A DNA stretch of 42,388 bases from Spirochaetota bacterium (GTDB lineage: Bacteria > Spirochaetota > Spirochaetia > SPDA01 > B32-G16), in the NCBI GenBank assembly GCA_003645645.1, contig QNBH01000008.1, forward strand, positions 1 to 42,388, written 5' to 3'. The notes below the pieces were generated by a model, which was not told the DNA's origin, did not search any database, and saw only the letters and a list, made by a program, of their open reading frames with translations. Shown piece after piece: positions 3,855 through 19,428 of this stretch. A program made the translations under genes and the position numbers. The first letter of the stretch is position 1. Each line of letters begins with the position of its first letter.

Positions 3855-4802
3855 TTAATCCCGATGATTTATGAGTACTTCTTTCAAATGATTTTCGAGA
3901 AAACACAGCATCCCTTCCCGATTTAAATGATCGGGATTGTAAAAATATTCCTCTTTGTTACAAACAAGGGTAAAATCGTAAAAGGCTACATCATACTTAT
4001 CCAGTACTTCCTTAATTTCATTATTAAACCGCTCTTCGTTTGGTATAAGCTCATAGAACTCTTTACGAAGAGGTGTTTTTATTACCATTACCTCGATTTT
4101 TTCGGACTGCAAATACTCAATCATCTGTATAAACTCTTGAATGTATTTATTAAAGAGATCTTTGTTAACTTCCTCAGGATAGAGGTAGTCTATCCGCTCT
4201 TTATCTACCCGTTCTGTGGGCTCATAGTTTTTCTCGAAGCTCTCTTCATCTTCCGGAATATCTGGTTTAAAGCGATCATGATTATTTATTTTAACGAAAC
4301 CTGATATATAATTTAAGGCAACTTTTATGTTCACTCCTCTCTTTACACTGTATGATAAGAGCAACCTGGCCAAAACCGGATCGAAAGGAGCTCTCCTGTA
4401 AAGGTCTACATCTTCGATTCTCTCGCCCTCATTCCACATTCTGGAATAAAAAATAAATGAATCCAGGACATAAAGAATATTCTTCGTTTTGTGCCTGGTA
4501 AGAAAATATTCAATTATAAGCCGGTTAAGAACAACTCCTGCACCGGGCATAGAGAGGTTTATGATTTTTGTATCGGTTTTTTGCTGGATCTGTTCTTTCA
4601 TGTCTTTAAAGGTAAAAGGCATGGCATGAGAGGAACCTAAAATAACGTAATCATATTCAATAAAATCGGCGTCTTTTACTTTAAAAAATCTATTCTCCTC
4701 TCCGTATTTATAAACCAATGTCTCTGACCACCAGTAAACTCCTGCATAAAGAATGAGCCCTATCACAGTAAAAAGTAAAACTCGTATACCAAAATTCTTC
4801 AT
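3855..4802 (-). CDS. membrane-anchored SGNH/AlgJ-DltD-like acyl-transfer protein
   Basis: A 315-residue protein with one N-terminal membrane anchor (residues about 7-24) and an extracytoplasmic SGNH-like domain. The nucleophile block is ILGSSHAMPF (Ser58), and the C-terminal block NPDHLNREG supplies an Asp-His pair near residues 291-292. Proteins of this kind (AlgJ/AlgX, DltD, PatB-like) finish O-acylation of an extracellular polymer after an MBOAT protein has moved the acyl group across the membrane. The MBOAT gene is immediately upstream, about 27 bases away, so the two form a pair. The polymer acylated is unknown; no polysaccharide genes are adjacent. Confidence 0.8.
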   Translation of the reverse strand: MKNFGIRVLLFTVIGLILYAGVYWWSETLVYKYGEENRFFKVKDADFIEYDYVILGSSHAMPFTFKDMKEQIQQKTDTKIINLSMPGAGVVLNRLIIEYFLTRHKTKNILYVLDSFIFYSRMWNEGERIEDVDLYRRAPFDPVLARLLLSYSVKRGVNIKVALNYISGFVKINNHDRFKPDIPEDEESFEKNYEPTERVDKERIDYLYPEEVNKDLFNKYIQEFIQMIEYLQSEKIEVMVIKTPLRKEFYELIPNEERFNNEIKEVLDKYDVAFYDFTLVCNKEEYFYNPDHLNREGMLCFLENHLKEVLINHRD

Positions 4803-4829
4803 TTCTGTATGGCTCCTTCGTTAAATATT

Positions 4830-6287
4830 TTAAAATTGCATATAGATAAACTGTTGTACTCCCCACTTTCCCAGAATGATCAATGAAAAAATAAGCACAT
4901 AATGAAAAGCCCATCTTACAGCCAGAGGTTTGGTTTTTAACCTTTCCCACACGCTCTTTCGTTCATCGATAATTTCGAAGATGATCAATATACCTATTAA
5001 AGCGAAGGAGATTAAAAGCTCGGGGGTAAAGTTATAAAACTTTAACAGCCTGGGAATCAGTTTTGCCCTTTTGCTAATATTACTCAGCATGTTAAATCCG
5101 TCTTCAATGGAGTTTACCCTGAAAAAGATCCAGGAAAAAAGAATAAGATGGAAAGTAAAGAGTGACCTTATTATGTTTATAACCGGATTGTCTTTTAGAA
5201 AGGGAACTGTATTCCCTATTTTCTTCCATAAAGGAGAACTTCCGACCGAAACCCACTGGTAAAATCCGTTTAAAGCCCCCCATATCATGAAGGTCCAGTT
5301 TACCCCATAGCCCAGTCCCGCATGCCATAGTCCGCTTATCACAAATACAATCATCAAATTAGCGTAATGTCTGGGTACACCCGCACGGCTACCCCCAAGT
5401 GGGATATACAAATAATCGCGGAACCAGCTCGCCAGCGAAATGTGCCATCTCTTAGCCCAGAACTCCGAAGGGGATTTTGAAAGATAGGGACGACGGAAGT
5501 TCTCCATAAGCTCGAACCCCATAAGTTTTGCAGCTCCCCTGGCTATATCTGTATACCCCGAAAAATCACAATATATTTGAAATGCGAAAAAATAAATTCC
5601 AATAATAATATCTATAGGAGGAGCATAGGCTGGTTTGCTGAAAACATTGTCCACAAAGGGAGCAATTCTGTCAGCAATAACCACTTTCTTAAACAATCCC
5701 AACAGGATCAGGTAGAAACCCATACTTGCTTTTTCCTGATCAAAATGAATTTTTTCCCTTAATTGGGGCAGGAAAGTACGAGCTCTTTCTATAGGACCTG
5801 CGAAAATCTTGGGAAAGTAGGATACATAGAGACCGAACCTTCCCAGATGAGGTTCTGCCTCCATGTCTTTTCGATATACATCAACTATGTAGGTTACGGT
5901 CATAAAAATGTAAAACGAAAGCCCGACCGGTAAAAATAAGTCTGGCTGAGGTATAGAGGTATTTAAAGCACTGTTTAACTGTTCTACAGCAAAATCTGCA
6001 AATTTAAAAACAGCTAATAATCCAAGGTTTATTAAACAACCGATACCCAGAAATAATTTTTTTCTTCCCTGATCTTCATCTGCGTGTTTTATTCCCAAAC
6101 CACAAAAGTAAGCGACCAGAGTAGAGATAACCAGAAGTAGCGGCGGAAGAAGCTTCCATGACCATGATATGTAGAAATATAGACTTGCAATTAGAAGCCA
6201 TGTCCACCTGTATTTATGGGGGATTATAAAAAAAAGAACGACAACAACACCCAGAAAAAGCAGGAAGGAAAAAGAATTAAAGAGCAT
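4830..6287 (-). CDS. MBOAT family O-acyltransferase (AlgI-like)
   Basis: A polytopic membrane protein of 485 residues, typical AlgI length. Family hallmarks are the KRWHISLASWFRDYLYIPLG block (His282) and SGLWHAGLGYG with the catalytic His322, the same number as in AlgI. It would take acyl groups from a cytoplasmic donor and pass them to an extracytoplasmic partner, here the SGNH protein encoded just downstream. I choose the ATG at 6287 because GGAGG lies directly before it; a TTG 18 bases upstream is in frame but overlaps that site. A perfect 10-bp hairpin with a T-rich tail sits just upstream, so transcription entering from the cytochrome gene may be reduced. Confidence 0.88.
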   Translation of the reverse strand: MLFNSFSFLLFLGVVVVLFFIIPHKYRWTWLLIASLYFYISWSWKLLPPLLLVISTLVAYFCGLGIKHADEDQGRKKLFLGIGCLINLGLLAVFKFADFAVEQLNSALNTSIPQPDLFLPVGLSFYIFMTVTYIVDVYRKDMEAEPHLGRFGLYVSYFPKIFAGPIERARTFLPQLREKIHFDQEKASMGFYLILLGLFKKVVIADRIAPFVDNVFSKPAYAPPIDIIIGIYFFAFQIYCDFSGYTDIARGAAKLMGFELMENFRRPYLSKSPSEFWAKRWHISLASWFRDYLYIPLGGSRAGVPRHYANLMIVFVISGLWHAGLGYGVNWTFMIWGALNGFYQWVSVGSSPLWKKIGNTVPFLKDNPVINIIRSLFTFHLILFSWIFFRVNSIEDGFNMLSNISKRAKLIPRLLKFYNFTPELLISFALIGILIIFEIIDERKSVWERLKTKPLAVRWAFHYVLIFSLIILGKWGVQQFIYMQF

Positions 6288-6304
6288 TTTCGCCTCCTTT
6301 TTCA

Positions 6305-6337
6305 AATAAAGCAGGGAAACAGGAAATGTTTCCCTGC
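6305..6337 (-). terminator. intrinsic terminator between cytochrome and MBOAT genes
   Basis: On the minus strand GCAGGGAAAC pairs with GTTTCCCTGC (plus-strand arms 6311-6320 and 6328-6337, perfect 10 bp, 7-base loop), followed by TTTATTT. It lies after the cytochrome stop codon and directly before the MBOAT ribosome binding site, so it could be a full or partial terminator. Confidence 0.65.
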
Positions 6338-6369
6338 CTGTGTGATGTTAGTTCTGTTCGGCCCAGTCA

Positions 6370-6939
6370 TTAATAAGAAGGAGGAAGCTCTCTTAACTCC
6401 GGTGGCAAACTCTCCTTGGGAATAGGTGCATTCGCAGTAAGATAGTGAGCAAGTGTATCCCACTCCTGCTCTGTATGTTCTATTATATTATGATCTCCGC
6501 TGTGGACCAGCAAGTTGTACCATGCGACATAAGTTCTTCTTTCCAGCATGGCAACATTTATGGGATGGCATAATGTACATCTTTCCTCTGCTATCAATCT
6601 GCCAGATGGAGGAAGAGTATTCACATTATACCTTCTGGGGAGTTTATTTTGAGGAATAGGCATATTTATAGCCAAATAGTTCACCAGGGTTGTTACTTCT
6701 TTATCGGATAAACCCGATAGAGCTCCCTTGTCTGAAAAGTACTTCTTCCACTCATCCTGCGTCCTTTTTGTGGTTACAATATTTTTTATATCATCGCAGT
6801 TCTTGCATTTATCCAGCACCTCAAGGAGGATATCGCTTCCCCCTTTTGGCATAAAGTCGTAACCCTGTGCAAAAAGCACTCCGATTACTGCTAGAACAAT
6901 GATTATAGTAATTATCAATTTTTTCCTGGCGCTTTTCAT
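6370..6939 (-). CDS. exported c-type cytochrome with two repeats, one haem site lost
   Basis: 189 residues with an N-terminal signal or anchor (hydrophobic residues 8-24, ending FAQG). The rest is two related units of about 75 residues, each ending in a similar NYLAINMPIPQNKLP / HYLTANAPIPKESLP motif. The second unit has a haem c attachment site CTLCH (Cys121, Cys124, His125). The first has CKNCD at 45-49, so the cysteines remain but the haem-ligand histidine is replaced by aspartate. It thus looks like a former dihaem cytochrome that now binds one covalent haem. It sits downstream of the zinc-ribbon and E1 genes on the same strand; an electron-transfer link to them is only suggestive. AAGGAG 9 bases upstream supports the start. 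Confidence 0.75.
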   Translation of the reverse strand: MKSARKKLIITIIIVLAVIGVLFAQGYDFMPKGGSDILLEVLDKCKNCDDIKNIVTTKRTQDEWKKYFSDKGALSGLSDKEVTTLVNYLAINMPIPQNKLPRRYNVNTLPPSGRLIAEERCTLCHPINVAMLERRTYVAWYNLLVHSGDHNIIEHTEQEWDTLAHYLTANAPIPKESLPPELRELPPSY

Positions 6940-6967
6940 CTCTAGTACTCCTTTTTATAATAGTTTT

Positions 6968-7354
6968 CTAAATTTTATCACCACCTGCGTAATATAAATC
7001 TGTATAATCGACTTTTACTTCCTGATTTTCACTCACCTCTGTTTCTTCACCGCTCTCGGCCTCTTCGGCCTGTTCGGAACTCTTCTCTCCATCAACATCT
7101 TCCAGAGAGAAGACTTCCACTTCTATTACTCTTCTGGCTCTTTCCCTTGGAAACTTTGTTTGCCTCAGCCTGTCGATCATGTAACTGGTTTTTTCATCAT
7201 AGAATTGTTCCATACATTTTTTACAGACCCGTGCAGGAATATCTTCTATAAGTACAGGTTTTTCATTAAACCATAAAAACGTTTTCACCGTATCCTCATA
7301 GGTTAATGAACCGCAATAATTGCACCTAAAATCTCTTGTTTCTTCCTCTCCCAT
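6968..7354 (-). CDS. YgiT-type (MqsA N-terminal-like) zinc ribbon protein with acidic tail
   Basis: 128 residues. The first 70 form a YgiT zinc ribbon: CNYC at residues about 11-14 and CKKC at about 44-47 bracket KTFLWFNEKPVLIEDIPARV, followed by a helical region ending DRLRQTKFPRERARR. The last 45 residues are strongly acidic and low in complexity. Such ribbons are often the N-terminus of MqsA-type antitoxins, but no helix-turn-helix follows and no MqsR-like toxin neighbours it. It is therefore either a stand-alone zinc protein or an orphan. The cytochrome gene follows 28 bases downstream. Confidence 0.7.
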   Translation of the reverse strand: MGEEETRDFRCNYCGSLTYEDTVKTFLWFNEKPVLIEDIPARVCKKCMEQFYDEKTSYMIDRLRQTKFPRERARRVIEVEVFSLEDVDGEKSSEQAEEAESGEETEVSENQEVKVDYTDLYYAGGDKI

Positions 7355-7457
7355 AAACTTCGTTTCCTCTATTCTTAGATTTTATCTAATTAAACGAACT
7401 GTGGAGAAAGATATAGACAATCCTTCCCCACAGAATTGACCGAAGATAGATTTATTT

Positions 7458-8441
7458 TTACTTTCTAAGTAACGCCTTGGCTGCCTCATATACATGAGTA
7501 CCGTTGGGTTTCATGTAATTGAACATCTCGGGTGCACCGGGAGGTGGGGCGTCCGGAAAAGCAATTCGTTTGAACTTTACCCCATCTGTAAACTCTGCTA
7601 TTCTGGCAATTACTTCGGCCCCCGGACAGAGGGTGTACTTTGACTGGTCAACCGTTAATACCCTACCCGTCTTCTTTGCAGATTTTACCAGCGTTTCTGT
7701 ATCCATGGGATTGAGGCATCTCAGATCAATCGTCTCCACGCTTATACCATCACCCTGGAGTTTTTGAGCACCTTCCATTGCTGCGAGCATACCCTGGCCT
7801 GAGCTTACTATTGTCAGATCTGAGCCCCGTGTTCTAACAGCGGCTTTCCCAATAGGAACCTCGTAGGGAGTATCGGGAATATCGTCTGATAGTGCACGGA
7901 AAGCACTGCCATTTAGGTATACGAAGGGATCCTTGCTTTTTACCGCGGTAATCATTAGCCCTTTGGCATCATAAACTGTAGAAGGAATCACCGTCCTTAC
8001 CCCTGGGACATGGGCGTACCAGCTATCAGCCTCGTAGTCCGAGTGCTGCCCTGCCAGCCCAGGCCCCTGACCAGATATATGTATAACCCACACTGCTGGA
8101 ATCGTTGCCTGACCTCCGGTCATATGATGTAGCTTTGCTGCATGTTGACTTACGATTTCAAAAGGATAGGGATTTGCCATGTACATATCATGCCAGTCAA
8201 TGGCTATAGAGCCCACCAGTGCTGCCCCTAAAGTGGCACCTGCATACCACATTTCATCGAGACCCGAGTATCGCACCCGGTCCTCTCCGTATTTTTTTGT
8301 TAAATCTATCGTAGGAAGGCCTGGGGCAGTTGCTATGGGTGTGGTTGCTTCATACCAAAAAATAAAATCATCTGTCCCCAGTTGTTCTAATGCCTGTACA
8401 ATGCCTTCCATTTGCGCATAAAACCAACCTTTCATCGACAT
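7458..8441 (-). CDS. 2-oxoacid dehydrogenase E1 component, beta subunit
   Basis: Pyruvate/branched-chain/acetoin dehydrogenase-type E1 beta, 327 residues, full length. It has the family's transketolase pyrimidine-binding region with the conserved glutamate (LDEMWYAG, aligned to the usual SEAGFAG), QHAAKLHHMTGGQ, the GQHSDYEADSWYAHVPG loop, PSTVYDAKGL and the C-terminal transketolase-C domain (TVDQSKYTLCPGAE). It forms an alpha2beta2 enzyme with the subunit encoded 73 bases upstream and would decarboxylate a 2-oxo acid using thiamine diphosphate. No lipoyl E2 or E3 gene is present in the window. The start has GAGGAGGG about 9 bases upstream. It carries no export signal, unlike its alpha partner. 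Confidence 0.88.
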   Translation of the reverse strand: MSMKGWFYAQMEGIVQALEQLGTDDFIFWYEATTPIATAPGLPTIDLTKKYGEDRVRYSGLDEMWYAGATLGAALVGSIAIDWHDMYMANPYPFEIVSQHAAKLHHMTGGQATIPAVWVIHISGQGPGLAGQHSDYEADSWYAHVPGVRTVIPSTVYDAKGLMITAVKSKDPFVYLNGSAFRALSDDIPDTPYEVPIGKAAVRTRGSDLTIVSSGQGMLAAMEGAQKLQGDGISVETIDLRCLNPMDTETLVKSAKKTGRVLTVDQSKYTLCPGAEVIARIAEFTDGVKFKRIAFPDAPPPGAPEMFNYMKPNGTHVYEAAKALLRK

Positions 8442-8514
8442 TTCTCATACCCTCCTCTAATTTATTAATCTTATCTAAAAAAAATCATAAAACGCACACC
8501 CTGACAGATCCTCA

Positions 8515-9771
8515 TTAAGCGTACGTTTTCCAGGGCGGACAATCTGCCAGCATTCTGGGAAGAACAGATTCCTCTTCAACAAACACATGTCTTAAGCCAT
8601 CCTCCGCCCTTGGCACCGGCTGAGCCTCTGCCCATCTAAAGGCATCCCTTATCTCTGCCTTTACCTCTTCTTCCAGTGCATCTGCCTCTCTTTCGGTTAA
8701 CATGCCCGTCTGAACAAGTGTCTTCCTGTGTTTATCGATTGGATCACGGGCAAGCCACGACAGGAGTTCTCTGTCAGAACGATATCCGAGGCCGAAGGAC
8801 CCGAGTTTTCCCGGTTCGGCTCCCCTTACTCCAAAGTGATCGTAATATCTGTAAGTTTTACACTCAATCAGAGTAGGACCTCTCCCGGCTCTTGCCCGCT
8901 CTACCGCTGCTTTTACGGCATTGTACACATCGAGTACATCCATTCCATCCACAACCACACCAGGAATATTATAAGCAGTCGCCATGATCGCTATGTCATC
9001 GACATTGATGCATTCTGAAATGTGCTGTCCTCGTGCATCCAGATACTGGTTGTTCTCAATTACATAAACCCAGGGGATTTTGTGGGTAGCAGCCTCGTTC
9101 AGTGAAATATGGAAATAGGGAGTTGTAGCGTGAGCATCGCCTCCGAAAGTAAGCGCCACCTGCCCCTTTCCTCTGGCTCTTAAGGCATGGCCTGCTCCAG
9201 CCCCGTAACAACAGCCTGGACCCACAACACCATCCTCACCGAGCATCCCCACATCGGCCTGCATGATGTGCATGGAGCCTCCATAACCGTTGTTGGTTCC
9301 GGATGCTTTAAATATTATCTCTGCCGCCATTTTCCTGATATTTGCACCCTTGGCAATTGCATGGTGATGGCTTCTGTGGTATCCTGCCATCCAGTCGTCT
9401 TTGTTCAAGGCAAAACAGGCGCCGACAGCACATGCCTCATGACCCGGCGAGCCGTGCATATATCCGCGGAAGCCTTTCTCTGTGAGCATCTTATCGGCTA
9501 CCGTGCGGTCATACCATCTGATCTGAAGCATTTTCCTCTGCATTTCGATAAGCTGCTCCCTTGTAAGTCTTTCGGGCCAGTAAATGTCTCTTTCCAGTGG
9601 TATTTTCGATACAGGCTCCTGCTCAGGTGTAGCCAGCAATCTCGTCCCGGTAGTAAATAAGGCAACGCTTGCTCCGGTTACCCCAAGACCCTTCAGGAAG
9701 TTTCTTCGGGAAATAAAGCCCTTTCCCTCTGCTTTAACTTCCTCTACAGTTTTTTCGATAGTGTCAGACAT
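8515..9771 (-). CDS. E1 alpha subunit of thiamine-dependent 2-oxoacid dehydrogenase with Tat signal
   Basis: 418 residues. From about residue 66 this is a standard E1 alpha: MQRKMLQIRWYDRT, GSPGHEA, YHRSHHHAIAKG, the GGSMHI loop and the thiamine diphosphate motif. That motif reads GDA (211-213) with NN at 240-241 instead of the usual GDG-NN. Residues 1-60 are atypical: a charged 20-residue leader, then SRRNFLKGLGVTGASVALFT, a textbook twin-arginine signal (RR at 22-23), then LLATPE. It would be exported folded with cofactor, possibly carrying the beta subunit. tatA and tatB lie 2 kb upstream. I choose the ATG at 9771 because GAGGAGG is 9 bases before it; a TTG at 9789 and an ATG at 9777 are poorly placed. 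Function outside the cytoplasm is unexplained. Confidence 0.88.
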   Translation of the reverse strand: MSDTIEKTVEEVKAEGKGFISRRNFLKGLGVTGASVALFTTGTRLLATPEQEPVSKIPLERDIYWPERLTREQLIEMQRKMLQIRWYDRTVADKMLTEKGFRGYMHGSPGHEACAVGACFALNKDDWMAGYHRSHHHAIAKGANIRKMAAEIIFKASGTNNGYGGSMHIMQADVGMLGEDGVVGPGCCYGAGAGHALRARGKGQVALTFGGDAHATTPYFHISLNEAATHKIPWVYVIENNQYLDARGQHISECINVDDIAIMATAYNIPGVVVDGMDVLDVYNAVKAAVERARAGRGPTLIECKTYRYYDHFGVRGAEPGKLGSFGLGYRSDRELLSWLARDPIDKHRKTLVQTGMLTEREADALEEEVKAEIRDAFRWAEAQPVPRAEDGLRHVFVEEESVLPRMLADCPPWKTYA

Positions 9772-9908
9772 ATCCATAGACCTCCTCAATAGAGATTTTT
9801 ACCCTCCTCCGGCGTGTAGCATTGATTGGCAAAGGCAAAACCGACCGGTATAAGGGCATTTTTCTAACCAGGATTTAAAAGGAAATTTTAAAGGTGTCCT
9901 CTGCCAGA

Positions 9909-10223
9909 TTAGCTTAATTTGTGTGCTAACTCTTTTAGACTCCCTCTTTCGCTGCCTTCCCTGCTATTTAAAAGAACTGTCTGTGTTGAATTGCTCCATT
10001 TGGGATTTTTTGGAGCTGATAATAAGTGTAATTGGAAATGGTCGTTATACCAGAGTATTGGTAGACTGCCATTCCCGTAAAGGTAATTTGATAGAACTGC
10101 GGGTGTTTCTTTAAGATAGGACTCATACGAAGAAAATAAGATCTTCCCATAATCCCGAGAAATTGAAAACAGCTCGTTCTCTTCTTTTACAACTTTCTTC
10201 TTTACATTAAGAGTTTCAAGCAT
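9909..10223 (-). CDS. small hypothetical protein, 104 aa
   Basis: An open frame lying between the E1 alpha gene and the ctpA-like gene on the same strand, with a loosely spaced AAGGAT before its ATG. The predicted protein has no signal peptide, no cysteines and no motif I recognise; it is rich in Ser, Leu, Asn and Tyr, with a mixed, natural-looking composition and a basic N-terminus. If it is not a gene, the region 9772-10357 is a 586-base gap in which I see no RNA gene or repeat. Confidence 0.38.
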   Translation of the reverse strand: MLETLNVKKKVVKEENELFSISRDYGKILFSSYESYLKETPAVLSNYLYGNGSLPILWYNDHFQLHLLSAPKNPKWSNSTQTVLLNSREGSERGSLKELAHKLS

Positions 10224-10357
10224 AAGTTACACTTTATCCTTTTAACTCCTTTAAATACAAATTATATACCATAAAATTCACTTTGTCAATGGATTTTCCT
10301 ATGAAAATTTCAGAATGATTAAAAAGAATTTAATAGTTAGACAATAAAGTATGGATT

Positions 10358-11719
10358 TTAGAAAGGACATTTTTCAATCTGTCTCTTAAGCACTTTTACT
10401 GCTTCCCGTAAAACTGTATCGTACTCCAGGTCATAAATTTTTGAGATGTTGTTTTTAATAATTTCTTGATAAGATTTTTGTTCATCCTCTGTAAGTTCAT
10501 ATTCTTTCACGATTTTATGCGGCGTAATACCTACCATATCGATGTTTGCATCCGAAGGAGTAAAATAACGAGCAGTGGTAAGTCTGAATCCTCCCGGGCC
10601 AAGTGGATTGAGCCTTTGAACAGATCCTTTCCCGTATGTTTCCTCTCCTATCAGGTATGCTCTTCCCCTGTCCTTTAAAGCACCTGCCAGTATTTCAGAA
10701 GCAGAAGCCGAACCTTTGTTAATAAGAACTACTATTGGTATATTGTAAGAAACCTTTGTTTCTTCACTTGCCATGAAATCCATATTCTCAGAGGCTATTC
10801 TTGACCGTGTGCTTACGATAATCCCTCCTGAGAGAAACAGATCAGCCGTATCCACTGCAGAGCTAAGAAGGCCGCCGGGATTGTTTCTCACATCGATAAT
10901 AAGGGAAGTGTATCCTCCTCTCTCGAAGTATTTAAGAGCTTCCTCTACCCTATCAGGCGTAAAAAGGGTAAACTCAGTGATTCTCAAATAGCCGATATCG
11001 GGCGGAATTATAGCTTTTTTTACGGTCGGCACTTCTATAATTTCACGGGTTAAGACTACATCAAACTCGATATCTGCACCCCTAAGAATTTTAATTTTTA
11101 CTTCAGTCCCGGGTAAACCTCGCAGTTTATCAATTACTTCATCTGCAGTCATATCAATAGTGGACTCCTCTTCAATTTCTATTATCAGGTCTCCCGGCAA
11201 AATTCCAGACCTGTGAGCAGGAGTCCCTTCTATAGGAGATATCACACGCACATAGGATGATTCTTCCTCCCTGTTTAAGCTAGGATTAAGTCTATCCCCT
11301 TTTATTTGCTTGATAATAGAGATGCCTATACCGCCATACTTACCCAAAGTGATATCTGTAGTTCGCTCCATATCTTTAGCATCCAGATATGTGGAGTACG
11401 GATCGTCCAGGCTATCTAAAAGCCCATGTAAAGCCCCTTCTAGAAGAGTTTTCGGATCCACCTCATCAACATAATTGTTATAAACGTACCAGAAAACCTG
11501 TTCCAATAGATTTAGATAATCATCGGCGGAAAATCTTTCGTAATCGATTGTATAGGCAGGGACATAAAATCCATCACTACCAGCCGGTCCTATGCTCCCT
11601 AAGGAACGCTCTGGTGGCTCTGCCAGAGCTATTGAAGAGAGGGATAGTAGAAAAATTAAGAGGAGCAATACCCTGCTTATCTTACTGATTTTTTTCGGTT
11701 TCTCCCTTGCTCTCTTCAT
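10358..11719 (-). CDS. S41 carboxyl-terminal processing protease (CtpA/Prc type)
   Basis: 453 residues with an N-terminal signal peptide (hydrophobic 17-33, cleavage near ALA-EP). A PDZ domain (about 120-225; GIGISI, GTPAHRSGILPGDLI) is followed by the S41 protease core. The catalytic dyad is visible: Ser339 in NKGSASASEI and Lys364 in TYGKGSVQ, the same 25-residue spacing as in E. coli Prc. It would trim or degrade envelope proteins in the periplasm. It overlaps the end of tatA by 38 bases, so it is translated from the tat transcript. Ordinary member of its family. Confidence 0.92.
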   Translation of the reverse strand: MKRAREKPKKISKISRVLLLLIFLLSLSSIALAEPPERSLGSIGPAGSDGFYVPAYTIDYERFSADDYLNLLEQVFWYVYNNYVDEVDPKTLLEGALHGLLDSLDDPYSTYLDAKDMERTTDITLGKYGGIGISIIKQIKGDRLNPSLNREEESSYVRVISPIEGTPAHRSGILPGDLIIEIEEESTIDMTADEVIDKLRGLPGTEVKIKILRGADIEFDVVLTREIIEVPTVKKAIIPPDIGYLRITEFTLFTPDRVEEALKYFERGGYTSLIIDVRNNPGGLLSSAVDTADLFLSGGIIVSTRSRIASENMDFMASEETKVSYNIPIVVLINKGSASASEILAGALKDRGRAYLIGEETYGKGSVQRLNPLGPGGFRLTTARYFTPSDANIDMVGITPHKIVKEYELTEDEQKSYQEIIKNNISKIYDLEYDTVLREAVKVLKRQIEKCPF

Positions 11720-11903
11720 CCTTACTTCCTTCTGTTCTCTCTGTTTCCTTCTCTATTTTTGCTTCATCTTCTACTTCTTTAACACCTTTTTCAAACTCCC
11801 TCTTTGCTTTTCCTATAGACTTGGCAAACCTTGGTATTGCTGCTCCTCCGAACAGGAGAACAACAACTCCTGCAATTATGATTATCTCTGTTGTTCCTAA
11901 CAT
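11682..11903 (-). CDS. tatA: Tat translocase subunit TatA
   Basis: 73 residues: a short N-terminal membrane helix (EIIIIAGVVVLLFGGAAIPRF), the hinge with FG and P, an amphipathic helix (KSIGKAKREFEKGV) and a charged tail. This is the standard TatA layout, forming the pore that exports folded proteins with twin-arginine signals. It lies 30 bases after tatB and overlaps the protease gene. No tatC is present in the window. The Tat-signal-bearing E1 alpha is encoded downstream on the same strand. Confidence 0.92.
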   Translation of the reverse strand: MLGTTEIIIIAGVVVLLFGGAAIPRFAKSIGKAKREFEKGVKEVEDEAKIEKETERTEGSKDEESKGETEKNQ

Positions 11904-11933
11904 AATGTTTTACCTCCAAATTAAGTTTATTGG

Positions 11934-12260
11934 TCAACCGGTTTTGTTAGAATCTGATTCATAAGAAGATGGTGGTTTGTGATCGGATTCTTTAGATTCT
12001 GATTCGTTGGAAGCAGATGGGTTCTTTTCTGTATTACCGGATTCTTTTGATTCCAGATTGCTCCCTACCTTTTCGATCGAGCTTAACTTTATGTTTTTCT
12101 CCATTTCATCTACAATTTTTAACATATCGTTGTAAAAGCCGGTAATTTGTTTGTAAAATCTTCCTATTTTCCTGAAAATACCTGGTAAGTCCCTGGGATT
12201 TATAAATATTATAATAAGAATGAGGATAATTATTATCTCCCAAAATCCAATTCCAAACAT
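11934..12260 (-). CDS. tatB: TatB-like Tat translocase subunit
   Basis: Starts MFGIGFWEIIIILILI, the TatB pattern (short periplasmic tip, Gly, Glu in the membrane helix), then NPRDLPGIFRKIGRFYKQ as hinge and amphipathic helix, and a long polar Ser/Glu/Asn-rich tail. About 108 residues. TatB partners TatC to recognise twin-arginine signals. The frame stays open 93 bases upstream, but the conserved family N-terminus and the AGGG just before it favour the ATG at 12260. TatA versus TatB is judged on the N-terminal helix and longer amphipathic region; TatC is not seen here. Confidence 0.82.
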   Translation of the reverse strand: MFGIGFWEIIIILILIIIFINPRDLPGIFRKIGRFYKQITGFYNDMLKIVDEMEKNIKLSSIEKVGSNLESKESGNTEKNPSASNESESKESDHKPPSSYESDSNKTG

Positions 12261-14574: not shown

Positions 14575-15639
14575 ATGAGCGCTTACAACAGAAGGTTCGT
14601 TCTTGTAACAGGAGCCTCAGGCTTTATCGGAAGACACCTGGCACGGGTCCTTATGGAAAGAGGCTACTCCGTACGAGCGGTATACAGAAGGGAGAACCCT
14701 CCTCTCATGCTCAAAGAATTGGAAACAAAAGGTGCAGAACTTCTCCGCCTGGATCTATCCGTAGGTGAGAATCTGTTGAGGGCGGTTTCGGGTGTTGATC
14801 GGGTAATTCATGCAGCGGCCATAGCATCAGACTGGGGAAAGTACGAAATCTTTCACAAATACAATTATGAGATGGCCATAAGCCTTCTGGAAGCGTCAAA
14901 GGAGAGCGGTTGTTCGGTTTTTGTGTATTTAAGCTCGGTTTCGGTTCACGGTTTCGGTAATCATGTGGAAAGTACCGAGGAAGGACCTTACTATCCACCG
15001 GTAAGTTTTTATCAGGAAACCAAGAAAAAGGCAGAGGACTATGTGCTTGCGCAAAATCAAACAGGATACGATAAAGAGGGAAACAAACTTTCTGGAAGAG
15101 CTCTTAAGACAACTGTCATTCGGCCAGGAAATGTATACGGTCCCGAAGATGGCACAACGTTTTTCCCCATTTTCGAAGCAATGGAGAGGGGGATAATGGG
15201 ATACATCGGAAAGGGGCATACCCTTACCTGCCCTGTTTATGTAGAGGATCTGGCAGAAGCAGTTATCCTTGCCATGGAAAAAGAGGAAAGTGCAGGAAAG
15301 TGTTTTAACATAACCGGCGGAGAGAGGGTTACATGGAGAGAACTGCTTAAGTACTGTTCGAGCTTACTTGGCTGTAAACCTCCTGTGTTGAGTATTCCCG
15401 TACCGGCAGCCTTTTTTCTTGCCCATTTAATGGAGTTTATTTTTAAAATGATAGGAATTAAATCTGCACCCCCCCTTACCCTTTACAGAGTCGCCCAGTT
15501 ATCGCACAACTATCACTTTAATATTTCCAGGGCCGAAAAGTTACTCGGGTTTAAGCCAAAAATCCCATGGAAAGAAGGGTTTAAGAGAACTGTATTAGAC
15601 TACCTTGAGAACTACAAACCGGTAGAGAAATCCCTGTAG
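14575..15639 (+). CDS. extended SDR, 3beta-HSD/OleD-like NAD(P)-dependent oxidoreductase
   Basis: About 354 residues. N-terminal Rossmann motif VTGASGFIGRHLA, HAAAIASDWG after strand 4, LSSVSVHG with the catalytic serine region, and YQETK as the YxxxK pair. VIRPGNVYGPED and the C-terminal part with a hydrophobic segment (SIPVPAAFFLAHLMEFIF) resemble 3beta-hydroxysteroid dehydrogenase and OleD-type enzymes that act on lipid beta-hydroxy or beta-keto groups. The ATG at 14575 has AAAGGA upstream and starts right at the family N-terminus. It converges with the PPTase gene (28-base overlap). A role in reducing a lipid keto group from the nearby acyl-carrier system is plausible but unproven. Confidence 0.82.
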   Translation: MSAYNRRFVLVTGASGFIGRHLARVLMERGYSVRAVYRRENPPLMLKELETKGAELLRLDLSVGENLLRAVSGVDRVIHAAAIASDWGKYEIFHKYNYEMAISLLEASKESGCSVFVYLSSVSVHGFGNHVESTEEGPYYPPVSFYQETKKKAEDYVLAQNQTGYDKEGNKLSGRALKTTVIRPGNVYGPEDGTTFFPIFEAMERGIMGYIGKGHTLTCPVYVEDLAEAVILAMEKEESAGKCFNITGGERVTWRELLKYCSSLLGCKPPVLSIPVPAAFFLAHLMEFIFKMIGIKSAPPLTLYRVAQLSHNYHFNISRAEKLLGFKPKIPWKEGFKRTVLDYLENYKPVEKSL

Positions 15640-16316
15640 CATACATGAAGACTCCGTCCCTCTGTGCAAAGGGCTCCAACATAACCGGGAAAGGGATCTA
15701 TATCTCTAGCTATCCACGAGCCGGCTGAATAAATATCTCCCTCGGCACTTATCAAAATAGAAGATAGACTTTCGTCTATATCCGTAACGGCTACTCCCTT
15801 TGCCTTTGCCAGTGCCTCAATACGACTCCATATACGGAAAAAACGGGAAGTCCGGTCGTCAAATATTTCACCCGCTTCGATGCCGGCTCTTTCTTCAACA
15901 GAAAAAAACCGCTCAAGAATTGCATCGGCATGTTTTAAGGGTCTTAGCTTCTCAAGATCAACACCCACCTCTCTATCTACACTAACTGCCACCAGTGCGT
16001 AATCTCCACTGTGGGAAAGATTGAAGTGGATTTGTTGTTTACAGAAGAAAAGGAGAGGTTTCCCCCTCTCTCCTGATACGAACTGTATTTCCCCCGGTTC
16101 TTCTTTTATGTAACTGCTCAGTATCTCTCTTAAACAGCCACGTGCTGCCAAATAATGCTCGCGTTCTCTGTAAGAATAGAATCTCTGCGCTCTTTCAAGC
16201 TCATCTGCAGAGAGAAGTTTTTTAAGTCTTTGAACCTCCCTATCCGGCCGATCCAGAGAGACCCTCCAGAGATGGATCGAGTTGTCTTTACTTCCTTTCG
16301 GTGATTCCATTTTCAT
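15612..16316 (-). CDS. Sfp-type 4'-phosphopantetheinyl transferase
   Basis: 234 residues, normal for the Sfp class. Key motifs: HFNLSHSGDYALVAVS, VGVDLEKL (Mg-binding Asp/Glu) and RIWSRIEALAKAKG (usual WxxKEAxxK, with Arg for the first Lys). It moves phosphopantetheine from CoA onto a serine of carrier proteins. Sfp-type enzymes usually serve secondary-metabolite carrier proteins, so the donor ACP at 36.4 kb is an obvious client. It converges with and overlaps the SDR gene at its 3' end and is divergent from the PIN gene. Confidence 0.9.
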   Translation of the reverse strand: MKMESPKGSKDNSIHLWRVSLDRPDREVQRLKKLLSADELERAQRFYSYREREHYLAARGCLREILSSYIKEEPGEIQFVSGERGKPLLFFCKQQIHFNLSHSGDYALVAVSVDREVGVDLEKLRPLKHADAILERFFSVEERAGIEAGEIFDDRTSRFFRIWSRIEALAKAKGVAVTDIDESLSSILISAEGDIYSAGSWIARDIDPFPGYVGALCTEGRSLHVCYRDFSTGL

Positions 16317-16337
16317 CTTTTATTTTATCGATCTTAA

Positions 16338-16430
16338 GTGATCAGAACAACAGGGGATTTTAACTTTCCCACTTCCTTCGACACACCTGAAAGCTACGTT
16401 CGAAAGATCCGGAAAGACAGAAAGATATGA
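16338..16430 (+). pseudogene. possible stub of an antitoxin ahead of the PIN toxin
   Basis: A 30-residue frame from a GTG ends in a TGA that overlaps the PIN start codon by four bases (ATGA), the usual toxin-antitoxin arrangement. Its end (TPESYVRKIRKDRKI) looks like the basic C-terminus of VapB antitoxins. There is a stop just upstream and no room for a DNA-binding domain before the divergent PPTase gene. It could be a truncated antitoxin or a chance frame. Confidence 0.3.
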
Positions 16431-16801
16431 TCTTGATTGATTCAGATATTATAATATGGTTGTTGAGAGGTGAAGCGATTTATAAAAACAAATTTTCTAT
16501 TGCAGTAGAACGTTTTAAGGCTCAGGTATTTATTACTCCAATACAATATGTGGAAATTATTGCCGGGGTAAAAGAAAAAATCGATACAGAGATTTTCCTG
16601 GATTCATTACGAATAATAAATATCGATAAGGAGGTAGGAAAATTAGCCGGAGAGTTTATGCGACTCTACCGTAAATCACACAATGTGCATGGTGCAGATT
16701 CAATTGTAGCTGCTGTTGCAAAAATACACAATTGCAAATTGTGGACTAACAATAAAAAGCATTTCCCCATGCTTGCGGAAGAGGAGTTTTATACAGCTTG
16801 A
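16427..16801 (+). CDS. PIN-domain ribonuclease, VapC-like toxin
   Basis: 124 residues, full PIN domain. Acidic residues: Asp5 (LIDSDIIIWLL), Glu43 (YVEIIAG), Asp91 (HGADSIVAA) and the polar Asn108 in LWTNNKKHF, giving a complete metal site for RNA cleavage. VapC toxins cut tRNA or rRNA and are normally held by a VapB antitoxin encoded just upstream. Here only a short stub is present there. The gene is intact, so either the cell tolerates it, a distant antitoxin exists, or it has a housekeeping role. Confidence 0.85.
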   Translation: MILIDSDIIIWLLRGEAIYKNKFSIAVERFKAQVFITPIQYVEIIAGVKEKIDTEIFLDSLRIINIDKEVGKLAGEFMRLYRKSHNVHGADSIVAAVAKIHNCKLWTNNKKHFPMLAEEEFYTA

Positions 16802-16885
16802 CTTTCCATTCAAAACGGTAATTACCTGCTCTCCTGCAAAAAATAGTATACAAACATTTATTTTACCATTAAAATACCAAATGTT

Positions 16886-18046
16886 ATGGATATAAAAGAA
16901 CTCGTAAAAAAAGAGAGAGAGCGTATTGTTCAAATCAGGCGCGACCTTCACCGTATTCCCGAACCTGGTTTCAAGGAGAAAAAAACATCCAAATATATTG
17001 TGGATTATATAAACCGGCTGGGTTTTTCTGCAAAATCTGAAATTGCCGGCACGGGGGTTATGGCATTACTCGAAACTTCCAGACCCGGCAAAACGCTCAT
17101 GTTCAGGGCGGATATGGATGCGCTTCCCATAGAAGAACGGACTGGACTGCCCTTTTCTTCCGTCCATCCCGGGTTCATGCACGCCTGTGGTCATGACGGT
17201 CATTCGGCGATGGTACTGGGCGCTTTCACCATTCTATCTCAAATGAGTGATAGACTTAAGGGGAGTGTTAAATTTGTGTTTCAACCTGCAGAGGAGGATC
17301 CCGGAGGTGCAAAGCCGATGATAGAGGCAGGGGTGATGGAGAATCCAGGGGTGGATTATGTTGCAGGTTGTCATCTCTGGCCCTTCATCCCCGAAGGAAA
17401 GGTGGGGGTAAGGGCAGGAGCCGTCATGGCGGCAATGGACAGGTTTGATCTGGAGATCAGGGGAAAGGGAGGTCATGGAGCGATGCCTCATCTGTGTGTG
17501 GATGCCCTGGAAGTGGGAACCCAGGTGGTAAGTGCACTACAGCGTCTTGTAAGCCGCAAAAATAATCCTCTTAAACCTGTGGTACTTACGGTGGGGAGTT
17601 TTCACTCTGGAGAAGCTTTTAATGTAATTTCCGATAAAGCCGTGATGAGCGGTACCACCAGGGCTTTCGACTACGATGTTTGGCATAACTGGCACAAAAA
17701 TATGGAAACCGTTATTAAAGGGATCTGTGAAGCATCGGGGGCACAATACCTGTTCGATTATAAGCGAGGACATCCCCCTGTCGTAAATCATCCCGAGATG
17801 GCGGAGCTGGTAAGAGAATGCGCCGTTGAGGTGGTAGGATCCGATAATGTTATAGAAGCTGACCCGACAATGGGTGGAGAAGATATGGCGTATTTTCTTG
17901 AAAGGGCTAAGGGTTGTTACTTTTTTCTTGGTACAGGTTTTGAGGGATGTTCCCTGCTTCACAGTTCCGGATTTAATTTCAATGAGGAGGTACTGCTTTC
18001 GGGTGTAGAAATATATTTACGTCTTGCCCTTAAACTGCTTTCATAG
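16886..18046 (+). CDS. M20D family amidohydrolase/peptidase
   Basis: 386 residues, typical of the IAA-amino-acid hydrolase/hippuricase/N-acetyl-diaminopimelate deacetylase group. Metal ligand motifs: FRADMDALPI, HACGHDGH, QPAEE with catalytic Glu pair, AGCHLWP, and the C-terminal LHSSGFNFNE (commonly HxxxFDFDE). A central dimerisation domain is present (RFDLEIRGKGGHGAMPH). It removes an acyl group from an N-acyl amino acid or related amide in the cytoplasm. It stands between the PIN gene and the ketosynthase; whether it processes an acyl-amino product of the nearby lipid genes cannot be told. Confidence 0.88.
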   Translation: MDIKELVKKERERIVQIRRDLHRIPEPGFKEKKTSKYIVDYINRLGFSAKSEIAGTGVMALLETSRPGKTLMFRADMDALPIEERTGLPFSSVHPGFMHACGHDGHSAMVLGAFTILSQMSDRLKGSVKFVFQPAEEDPGGAKPMIEAGVMENPGVDYVAGCHLWPFIPEGKVGVRAGAVMAAMDRFDLEIRGKGGHGAMPHLCVDALEVGTQVVSALQRLVSRKNNPLKPVVLTVGSFHSGEAFNVISDKAVMSGTTRAFDYDVWHNWHKNMETVIKGICEASGAQYLFDYKRGHPPVVNHPEMAELVRECAVEVVGSDNVIEADPTMGGEDMAYFLERAKGCYFFLGTGFEGCSLLHSSGFNFNEEVLLSGVEIYLRLALKLLS

Positions 18047-18139
18047 AGCAGGAATAGGTAGATTAAGACCTTGACAACAGGAACATTTATCTGTTGAATT
18101 CTCCCGCAAATTGGTATCAATTTACCGGACTAAAGCAAT

Positions 18140-18163
18140 AGTATTTCCGGTATTAGAAATACT
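18140..18163. repeat. 8-bp inverted repeat upstream of ketosynthase
   Basis: AGTATTTC (18140-18147) and GAAATACT (18156-18163) are a perfect inverted repeat with an 8-base spacer, ending 17 bases before the GTG start. It could be an operator or an RNA hairpin near the ribosome binding site. The remaining 134-base gap shows nothing else. Confidence 0.4.
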
Positions 18164-18180
18164 TCAAGAAAGGGGTTTCA

Positions 18181-19428
18181 GTGTATAACAATAGAAGGGT
18201 AGTTATTACCGGCCTTGGTACCATAAACCCGATCGGAAACAATATTAAGGAATACTGGGACAATTTACAAAAGGGTAAATCCGGTGTAAGGCTGGCGAAA
18301 AATGTTGATTTAAGCGATTATTACGTCAAAATAGCCGGAGAAATAGATCTTCCCGATGTTTCTCAATACTTCCGATCCAAGAGAGACCTGAAGAGGCTCG
18401 ATCGCTATATTATACTTGGTCATGTAGCAGGATGCCAATCAATAGAGGATTCAGGGGTGGAAATACAAAAAGCACCTGAGCGTTACGGGACGTTGATTGG
18501 CGTGGGAAAGGCAGGGCTTCTTTCCCACTGGGCTAATATACCGAGGATATACAACGATGGCATGCACTCCTGTCCTCCTTATTACATAGTTAGTGGTATT
18601 CCTAATACAGGAACTGCCTTCTTGGCCAAAGAGTGGGGGCTCCGTGGTCCATCATTTACAGTAAGTTCTGCATGCGCAACCAGCAATCATGCCATCGGCT
18701 TAGCAGTAACTCTAATTAAAAGCGGGATGGCCGATGCCATGTTCGTAGGAGGGGCAGAAGCTATTATAACCAGACCCGCTTTTGCAGCATTCGGAAACAT
18801 AATGGCCATTTCCGACCGAAACGATTCACCGGAAACCGCAAGCAGGCCTTTCGATGTTGACCGTAATGGTTTTGTAATAAGTGAAGGAGCGGGTGTTCTG
18901 TGCATTGAAGAACTGGAGCATGCCCTTAAAAGAGATGCCCATATTTATTGTGAGATAACAGGAGTGGGTTTCTCCTGTGATGCATACGACATGGTCGCCC
19001 CCCATCCGGAAGGCAGGGGAGCATCCCAATCGATGGAAATGGCGCTAAACTCTGCACAACTTAATCCGGAAGATATCGGACTAATAAATTGCCACGGTAC
19101 CTCTACTCCCATTGGAGACAAGGTGGAAAGTGATGCAATAATTAAGAGCTTTGGTAATTACGGTACAAAGGTTCCAGCCCACAGTACAAAATCAATGACC
19201 GGTCATATGATAGGTGCAGCAGGTGCAGCAGAGGCAATAGCCGCCATCATGGTCTATGAAAAGGGAGTCGTCCATCCTTCTATTAATATCTTCAATCAGG
19301 ATCCGGAAATAAGGCTGAATGTGGTAAAGGAACCTATGGAGAATAAAAAAATAAATCATATACTATCGAACGGATTCGGATTCGGAGGGCAAAACGCTTC
19401 GATAGTTTTATCTCGATTCAGAGGTTAG
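18181..19428 (+). CDS. beta-ketoacyl-ACP synthase, FabF-like
   Basis: 415 residues, full-length condensing enzyme. Catalytic set complete: Cys165 in SSACATSNH, His305 in NCHGTSTP, Lys337 and His342 in TKSMTGHMIG. It extends an acyl-ACP with malonyl-ACP by two carbons. GTG start with AAGGGG 6 bases before. The gene is alone, with no malonyltransferase, reductase or ACP adjacent as in a primary fab operon. It is 17 kb from a second ketosynthase in the beta-branching cluster, and a Sfp-type PPTase is nearby. It may be a specialised synthase working with that cluster, or a spare FabF; I favour the former only weakly. Confidence 0.9.
   Translation: MYNNRRVVITGLGTINPIGNNIKEYWDNLQKGKSGVRLAKNVDLSDYYVKIAGEIDLPDVSQYFRSKRDLKRLDRYIILGHVAGCQSIEDSGVEIQKAPERYGTLIGVGKAGLLSHWANIPRIYNDGMHSCPPYYIVSGIPNTGTAFLAKEWGLRGPSFTVSSACATSNHAIGLAVTLIKSGMADAMFVGGAEAIITRPAFAAFGNIMAISDRNDSPETASRPFDVDRNGFVISEGAGVLCIEELEHALKRDAHIYCEITGVGFSCDAYDMVAPHPEGRGASQSMEMALNSAQLNPEDIGLINCHGTSTPIGDKVESDAIIKSFGNYGTKVPAHSTKSMTGHMIGAAGAAEAIAAIMVYEKGVVHPSINIFNQDPEIRLNVVKEPMENKKINHILSNGFGFGGQNASIVLSRFRG

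Follow-up and report, generated by a model that had tools for sequence, protein, structure and literature searches.

The window, that is, the whole 42,388-nucleotide stretch of Spirochaetota DNA analysed, carries on its minus strand six genes, whose order is common to all of the five loci identified: E1 alpha with a twin-arginine (Tat) leader, E1 beta, a YgiT-type zinc finger protein, one or two monohaem cytochromes c, an MBOAT acyltransferase and an SGNH-type protein. The cassette reaches past the interval (8515-12260) covered by a previous sequence-only reading of this DNA, and extends to 3855. The features are as follows.

3855-9789, minus strand: whole cassette, six genes, order kept in five loci
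9631-9771, minus strand: Tat leader of about 47 codons (TAT_signal models, hydropathy, conserved R-R and K)
9691-9711, minus strand: SRRNFLK motif of the E1 alpha leader
8515-9771, minus strand: E1 alpha subunit (E1_dh family) with N-terminal Tat signal (Pfam, AGGAGG, orthologues)
7458-8441, minus strand: E1 beta subunit, no export signal (Pfam, orthologues, hydropathy)
6968-7354, minus strand: YgiT-type zinc finger protein (NCBIfam YgiT_finger, 7.1e-8)
6370-6939, minus strand: monohaem protein resembling c-type cytochromes, its signal or anchor of the Sec type (CTLCH at 6565-6579)
4830-6287, minus strand: MBOAT acyltransferase ending FIYMQF (4833-4850) (Pfam MBOAT, 1.6e-27)
3855-4802, minus strand: SGNH/DltD-like periplasmic protein with N-terminal membrane anchor (motifs; anchor hydropathy 2.57)
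11682-11903: tatA
11934-12260: tatB

The five copies of the cassette, found in two phyla, share order and strand at 27-54% protein identity. Identity to the window copy is about 48-51, 52-54, 34-41, 27-33, 49-52 and 37-43% for the six cassette proteins, the first two figures referring to E1 alpha and E1 beta. The flanks, in which gene names were read by eye from the translations, differ between loci, and nothing common was seen outside the cassette. RtcB-like and kinase-like genes flank the copy at locus L063, MutY and xanthine dehydrogenase genes the copy at L064. The window copy is bordered by an Lnt-like gene at one end, and at the other by tatA, tatB and the gene for a C-terminal processing protease. 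The tatA and tatB genes (11682-12260) adjoin the protease gene, TatC being encoded on another contig. Both genes, the proximity of which had been stressed in the sequence-only reading, are real, but have no bearing on the conserved unit. They have been dropped as cassette members because the surroundings of the other four copies yielded no tat homologue.

Other loci reside in the window. The segment 34428-42380 (minus strand) encodes a ketosynthase, two ketoreductases, an HMG-CoA-synthase-like protein, two crotonases, a PLP-dependent oxoamine-synthase-like protein and a FabA-like protein, and resembles a cassette of the beta-branching polyketide or fatty-acid-like type. Possibly linked to it are two genes at 15612-19428, one phosphopantetheinyl transferase-like, the other for a second ketosynthase. 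The segment 20514-27726 encodes an MttB-family (non-pyrrolysine) methyltransferase next to a ferredoxin protein similar to dihydroorotate dehydrogenase, and an ABC transporter of the branched-chain amino acid type together with its binding protein; it is a possible locus for quaternary-amine uptake and demethylation.

Relatives and distribution

In 393 genomes of the phylum to which the window belongs, the E1 alphas closest to that of the window show about 40% identity and lack a leader. A strict scan for six motifs in 84,980 species genomes retrieved no relative, since the motifs chosen differ in the orthologues. The Glu residue of the FHE motif, found in the general E1 alphas compared, is Ile in the window protein, and the scan that led to the discovery of the orthologues used a DNA pattern demanding a residue other than Glu at this position, first tried on known members. 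It identified 24 loci. Twenty-three of them (L029-L052 except L033), mostly Chloroflexota E1 alphas in which the Glu of the FHE motif is missing, are 31-34% identical and lack a leader. The remaining locus, L033, resides in the betaproteobacterium FW602_bin.15. Its E1 alpha is 49% identical to that of the window and carries the leader SRRTFMK...AWA-N; its E1 beta shows 52% identity. Three further orthologues were found by searching the 98 genomes of the same family. The four betaproteobacterial E1 alphas are 48-51% and the E1 betas 52-54% identical to the window proteins, and the five E1 alphas form one clade with 100/100 support.

The cassette is rare. It was not found elsewhere in 297 genomes of the class of the window, and among 399 genomes each of the order and the phylum of the betaproteobacterium it occurs only in the family of L033. 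Scans of viral contigs gave 27-32% identical relatives or nothing, and searches of plasmids only general E1 sequences. The pattern used for discovery does not cover three of the four betaproteobacterial copies, which read GYAGEMH or GYAAEMH, and the number of copies found is therefore a lower bound. The same applies to all distribution counts. The sample consists of five copies, four of them from one family, in fragmented assemblies.

Leader and thiamine site of the E1 subunits

The mechanical reading frame of E1 alpha reaches a TTG at 9789. The start has been placed at the ATG at 9771, which is preceded by a perfect AGGAGG ribosome site; between the leader and the E1 domain there is no in-frame start with a comparable site. 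The leader scores above the cut-off with Pfam TAT_signal (26.3 bits, cut-off 22.7; 6.2e-6) and with the NCBIfam TAT domain, and a full E1_dh domain (210.7 bits, 3.1e-62) follows, so that a Tat signal ahead of a complete E1 alpha, as read from the letters alone, is confirmed. Three of the four orthologues score under the Pfam cut-off, but the motif is nonetheless clear: SRRTFMK in two proteins, SRRTFLK and TRRTLLK in the others, as compared with SRRNFLK in the window. Hydropathy of the window leader is moderate (1.49); the five E1 alpha leaders range from 1.3 to 1.6, the cytochrome leaders from 1.8 to 3.5. The cleavage region reads AWA-N in the four orthologues and LLA-T in the window copy, in which cleavage after LLA is possible, a clean A-x-A site being absent.

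Alignment of the five E1 alphas revealed that the leaders have in common the R-R pair, the K and a few small residues, and have otherwise diverged. Retention of R-R and K in an otherwise variable segment suggests selection on the signal rather than recent common descent. The twin-arginine leader is present in 5/5 orthologues and in 0/36 more distant E1 alphas, which excludes chance. Export of E1 alpha by the Tat pathway is, at the level of sequence comparison, strongly supported. The check on homologues called for by the sequence-only reading gave what it had anticipated, as the leader accompanies an E1 beta in every copy, and E2 and E3 are missing from all five loci. A structure of E1 alpha predicted from the five sequences was poor (pLDDT 42).

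E1 beta matches Transketolase_C (8.6e-26) and Transket_pyr (1.3e-10). A hydrophobic leader was sought by hydropathy and is absent, in agreement with the notion that this subunit has no signal of its own. The further proposal, in which E1 beta is a predicted passenger of the alpha leader, draws strong support from the fact that two phyla have conserved this leader. E1 alpha residues H107, R134, D213, N242, Y244 and H313 (P0001 numbering) and E1 beta residues E63 and H133 are invariant in the five copies, and these site positions align with the structures of PDH and BCKDH. By established knowledge of these enzymes, the former bind thiamine diphosphate and magnesium, and the latter are the catalytic Glu and His. 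The GDA reading of the thiamine motif in the window was considered as a mark of altered chemistry. The idea has been abandoned: GDG stands in the four orthologues, and all copies retain the metal-binding D, N and Y, hence GDA is not telling.

Partner genes and host genome

The zinc finger protein has four cysteines and an EDIPA motif invariant in the five copies. It is probably cytoplasmic, and one might guess at an assembly or regulatory factor. The CxxCH motif of the cytochrome is invariant in nine homologues, and the leaders are Sec-type. The predicted structure of the cytochrome has a pLDDT of 82, and no solved structure matched at E < 0.001. Weak profile similarity, below the cut-off, was found to the haem domain of the quinohemoprotein amine dehydrogenase alpha subunit, with which the protein shares one CxxCH, the remainder of that enzyme being missing. 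Genes for c-type cytochrome maturation are present in the genome of the window. In the 98-genome betaproteobacterial family the cytochrome profile hits the 4/4 genomes bearing the E1 (two copies each) and 0/94 others. The downstream haem gene singled out earlier has thus proved to be a constant neighbour, a CxxCH protein being encoded at the same place in every copy.

The nearest solved relatives of the MBOAT protein are DltB proteins. WHAGLG, which includes the conserved His, and the C-terminal FIYMQF are invariant in the five copies, and the latter agrees with the FXYXXF acyl-shuttle motif. The tyrosine of this motif is the carrier of the acyl group both in PatA and, within a separate microprotein, in the Dlt system (PMC12148441). 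In the SGNH-type protein the motifs GxSHAMP and DHLNR are invariant in five copies, and matches to DltD and GDSL are weak, below cut-off. At L033 (5372-7399) the SGNH-type gene runs in frame into what resembles a periplasmic solute-binding protein, in a frame of 675 amino acids, which may be a fusion or an assembly artefact. Like DltB/DltD, PatA/PatB and AlgI/AlgJ, the pair combines an MBOAT protein having a C-terminal FXYXXF with an SGNH-type partner having an N-terminal anchor (PMC12148441); unlike them, it resides in a fixed unit with a thiamine enzyme and cytochromes. Conservation of three further genes, for the zinc finger, MBOAT and SGNH-type proteins, makes a link to acyl transfer a serious possibility. 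At least four of the six cassette products carry a signal or an anchor, and thus belong to the membrane or the periplasm.

None of the five cassette loci includes E2 or E3 genes, and their absence, first remarked for the window, is therefore a property of all copies. The catalytic E2 domain (PF00198, 2-oxoacid_dh) was not found in the genome of the window in a search in which controls worked; this absence is not absolute, because the assembly consists of 380 contigs. Genome G393 has ordinary E2s elsewhere, outside the cassette. The claim that the genome of the window lacks lipoyl proteins was dropped, as contig C75 encodes one. In this contig (L080; 1270-2775 and 2776-4758, minus strand) a 501-amino acid fusion of lipoyl, E3-binding and ketoacyl synthase III (FabH-like) domains lies beside a fused E1 alpha-beta gene. 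The ketoacyl synthase III replaces the acyltransferase expected in an E2, and the fusion may hand acyl groups of a 2-oxo acid directly to the condensing enzyme. The pair is separate from the cassette.

Candidate roles of an exported E1

E1 enzymes are textbook cytoplasmic (or organellar) components of E2/E3 complexes. Like the alpha2beta2 E1 of PdhAB, BkdA and AcoAB, the cassette E1 has both subunit domains, the thiamine and metal ligands and the catalytic Glu and His of the beta subunit. Unlike the E1 of PDH and branched-chain complexes, it carries a Tat leader on its alpha subunit, lacks E2 and E3 genes in the unit, belongs to a clade of its own and scores 249 bits against a PDH equivalog cut-off of 394 bits. 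As judged from its genes, it departs from 2-oxoacid dehydrogenase complexes in two defining features, the E2 partner and the predicted location. All parts belong to known kinds; what is new to us is where they are located and how they are combined, and no published account of an exported thiamine E1, or of this gene unit, was found among open-licence full texts. The conserved cassette is read as encoding a thiamine enzyme system located in the envelope, a reading with about an even chance of being correct.

The process may be envisaged in four steps. In the first, which is very probable, E1 alpha and beta would fold, with thiamine diphosphate bound, while still in the cytoplasm; Tat would then export their complex, beta being a passenger of the alpha leader. 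Export of the folded complex is inferred from HybOC and PaoABC, for which passenger export on Tat is established (PMC4273604). In both, as in the cassette E1, one subunit has the twin arginines and its partner in a cofactor enzyme lacks a signal. No thiamine enzyme was found among the Tat passenger complexes described in open-licence full texts. In the second step, nearly as probable as the first, E1 would decarboxylate a 2-oxo acid outside the cytoplasm, with neither E2 nor a lipoyl partner. Ligands and catalytic residues are in place, E2 occurs in 0/5 cassettes, and the E1 of Geobacillus stearothermophilus alone oxidises pyruvate with DCPIP, giving acetate (PMC2663715). In the third, for and against which the balance is roughly equal, the co-encoded cytochromes c would oxidise the enamine intermediate, and electrons would enter the respiratory chain. 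The suggestion stems from the invariant co-occurrence of the genes and from the known reduction of artificial acceptors by E1 enzymes. To our knowledge, no E1 donates electrons to cytochrome c. Of the periplasmic decarboxylase or oxidase passing electrons to a cytochrome, as pictured from sequence at the outset, Tat export is strongly supported and the absence of E2/E3 holds in all copies; electron transfer keeps its conditional standing. In the fourth step the MBOAT and SGNH-type proteins would move acyl groups to an acceptor in the envelope. That these groups derive from the E1 product is a tentative idea, on balance doubtful. Characterised MBOAT-SGNH systems draw acyl groups from the cytoplasm, and we know of no precedent for a thiamine enzyme feeding an acyl transfer step. 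The complete scheme, in which a Tat-exported E1 would oxidise 2-oxo acids, giving electrons to dedicated cytochromes c and acyl groups to the MBOAT-SGNH pair without CoA or lipoate, is a proposal that is unlikely to hold in full.

Two other scenarios, each with a rather low probability, assume export of the enzyme. The reaction might be non-oxidative, the exported E1 either decarboxylating a 2-oxo acid in the periplasm or coupling the two-electron unit that results to an aldehyde or a ketone there, in a carboligation, and the cytochromes serving another step of the pathway. The intact thiamine site would allow it, thiamine enzymes lacking E2 can carboligate, and the structural path of electrons to the haem is conjectural. 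Yet the cytochromes are invariant members of the cassette and co-occur perfectly with E1, which favours a redox reaction. Alternatively, E1 could be the very source of envelope acylation, acyl-thiamine, formed by oxidation on the outer side of the membrane, being transferred to the SGNH-type protein or to the C-terminal tyrosine of the MBOAT protein, and then to a polymer, in place of cytoplasmic acyl-CoA, with electrons going to the cytochrome. An apparently complete MBOAT-SGNH pair with FXYXXF fixed in the cassette, both proteins being membrane or periplasmic, is consistent with this scenario. However, the cassette contains no gene for polymer synthesis, and PatA uses cytoplasmic acetyl-CoA (PMC12148441), thus an MBOAT protein would be unnecessary for a periplasmic donor.

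It is considerably less probable that E1 stays in the cytoplasm, with a leader that is skipped or is no more than a remnant. Every characterised E1 enzyme known to us is indeed cytoplasmic or organellar, but R-R is retained in five divergent copies, the good ribosome site is found solely before the leader, and the products of the partner genes are envelope proteins. Adjacency of the six genes by chance or shared ancestry, with no common function, is hardly credible: only five copies are known, four of them in one family, but order and strand have been kept across two phyla at such low identity while flanks changed, and E1 and cytochrome co-occur perfectly in the family of 98 genomes.

An exported, conserved E1 would, if true, give thiamine chemistry a location and an outlet for electrons that are both new, and add to the cofactors known to be transported by Tat. 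Its union with an MBOAT-SGNH pair raises the question of the source of the acyl groups used to modify the envelope.
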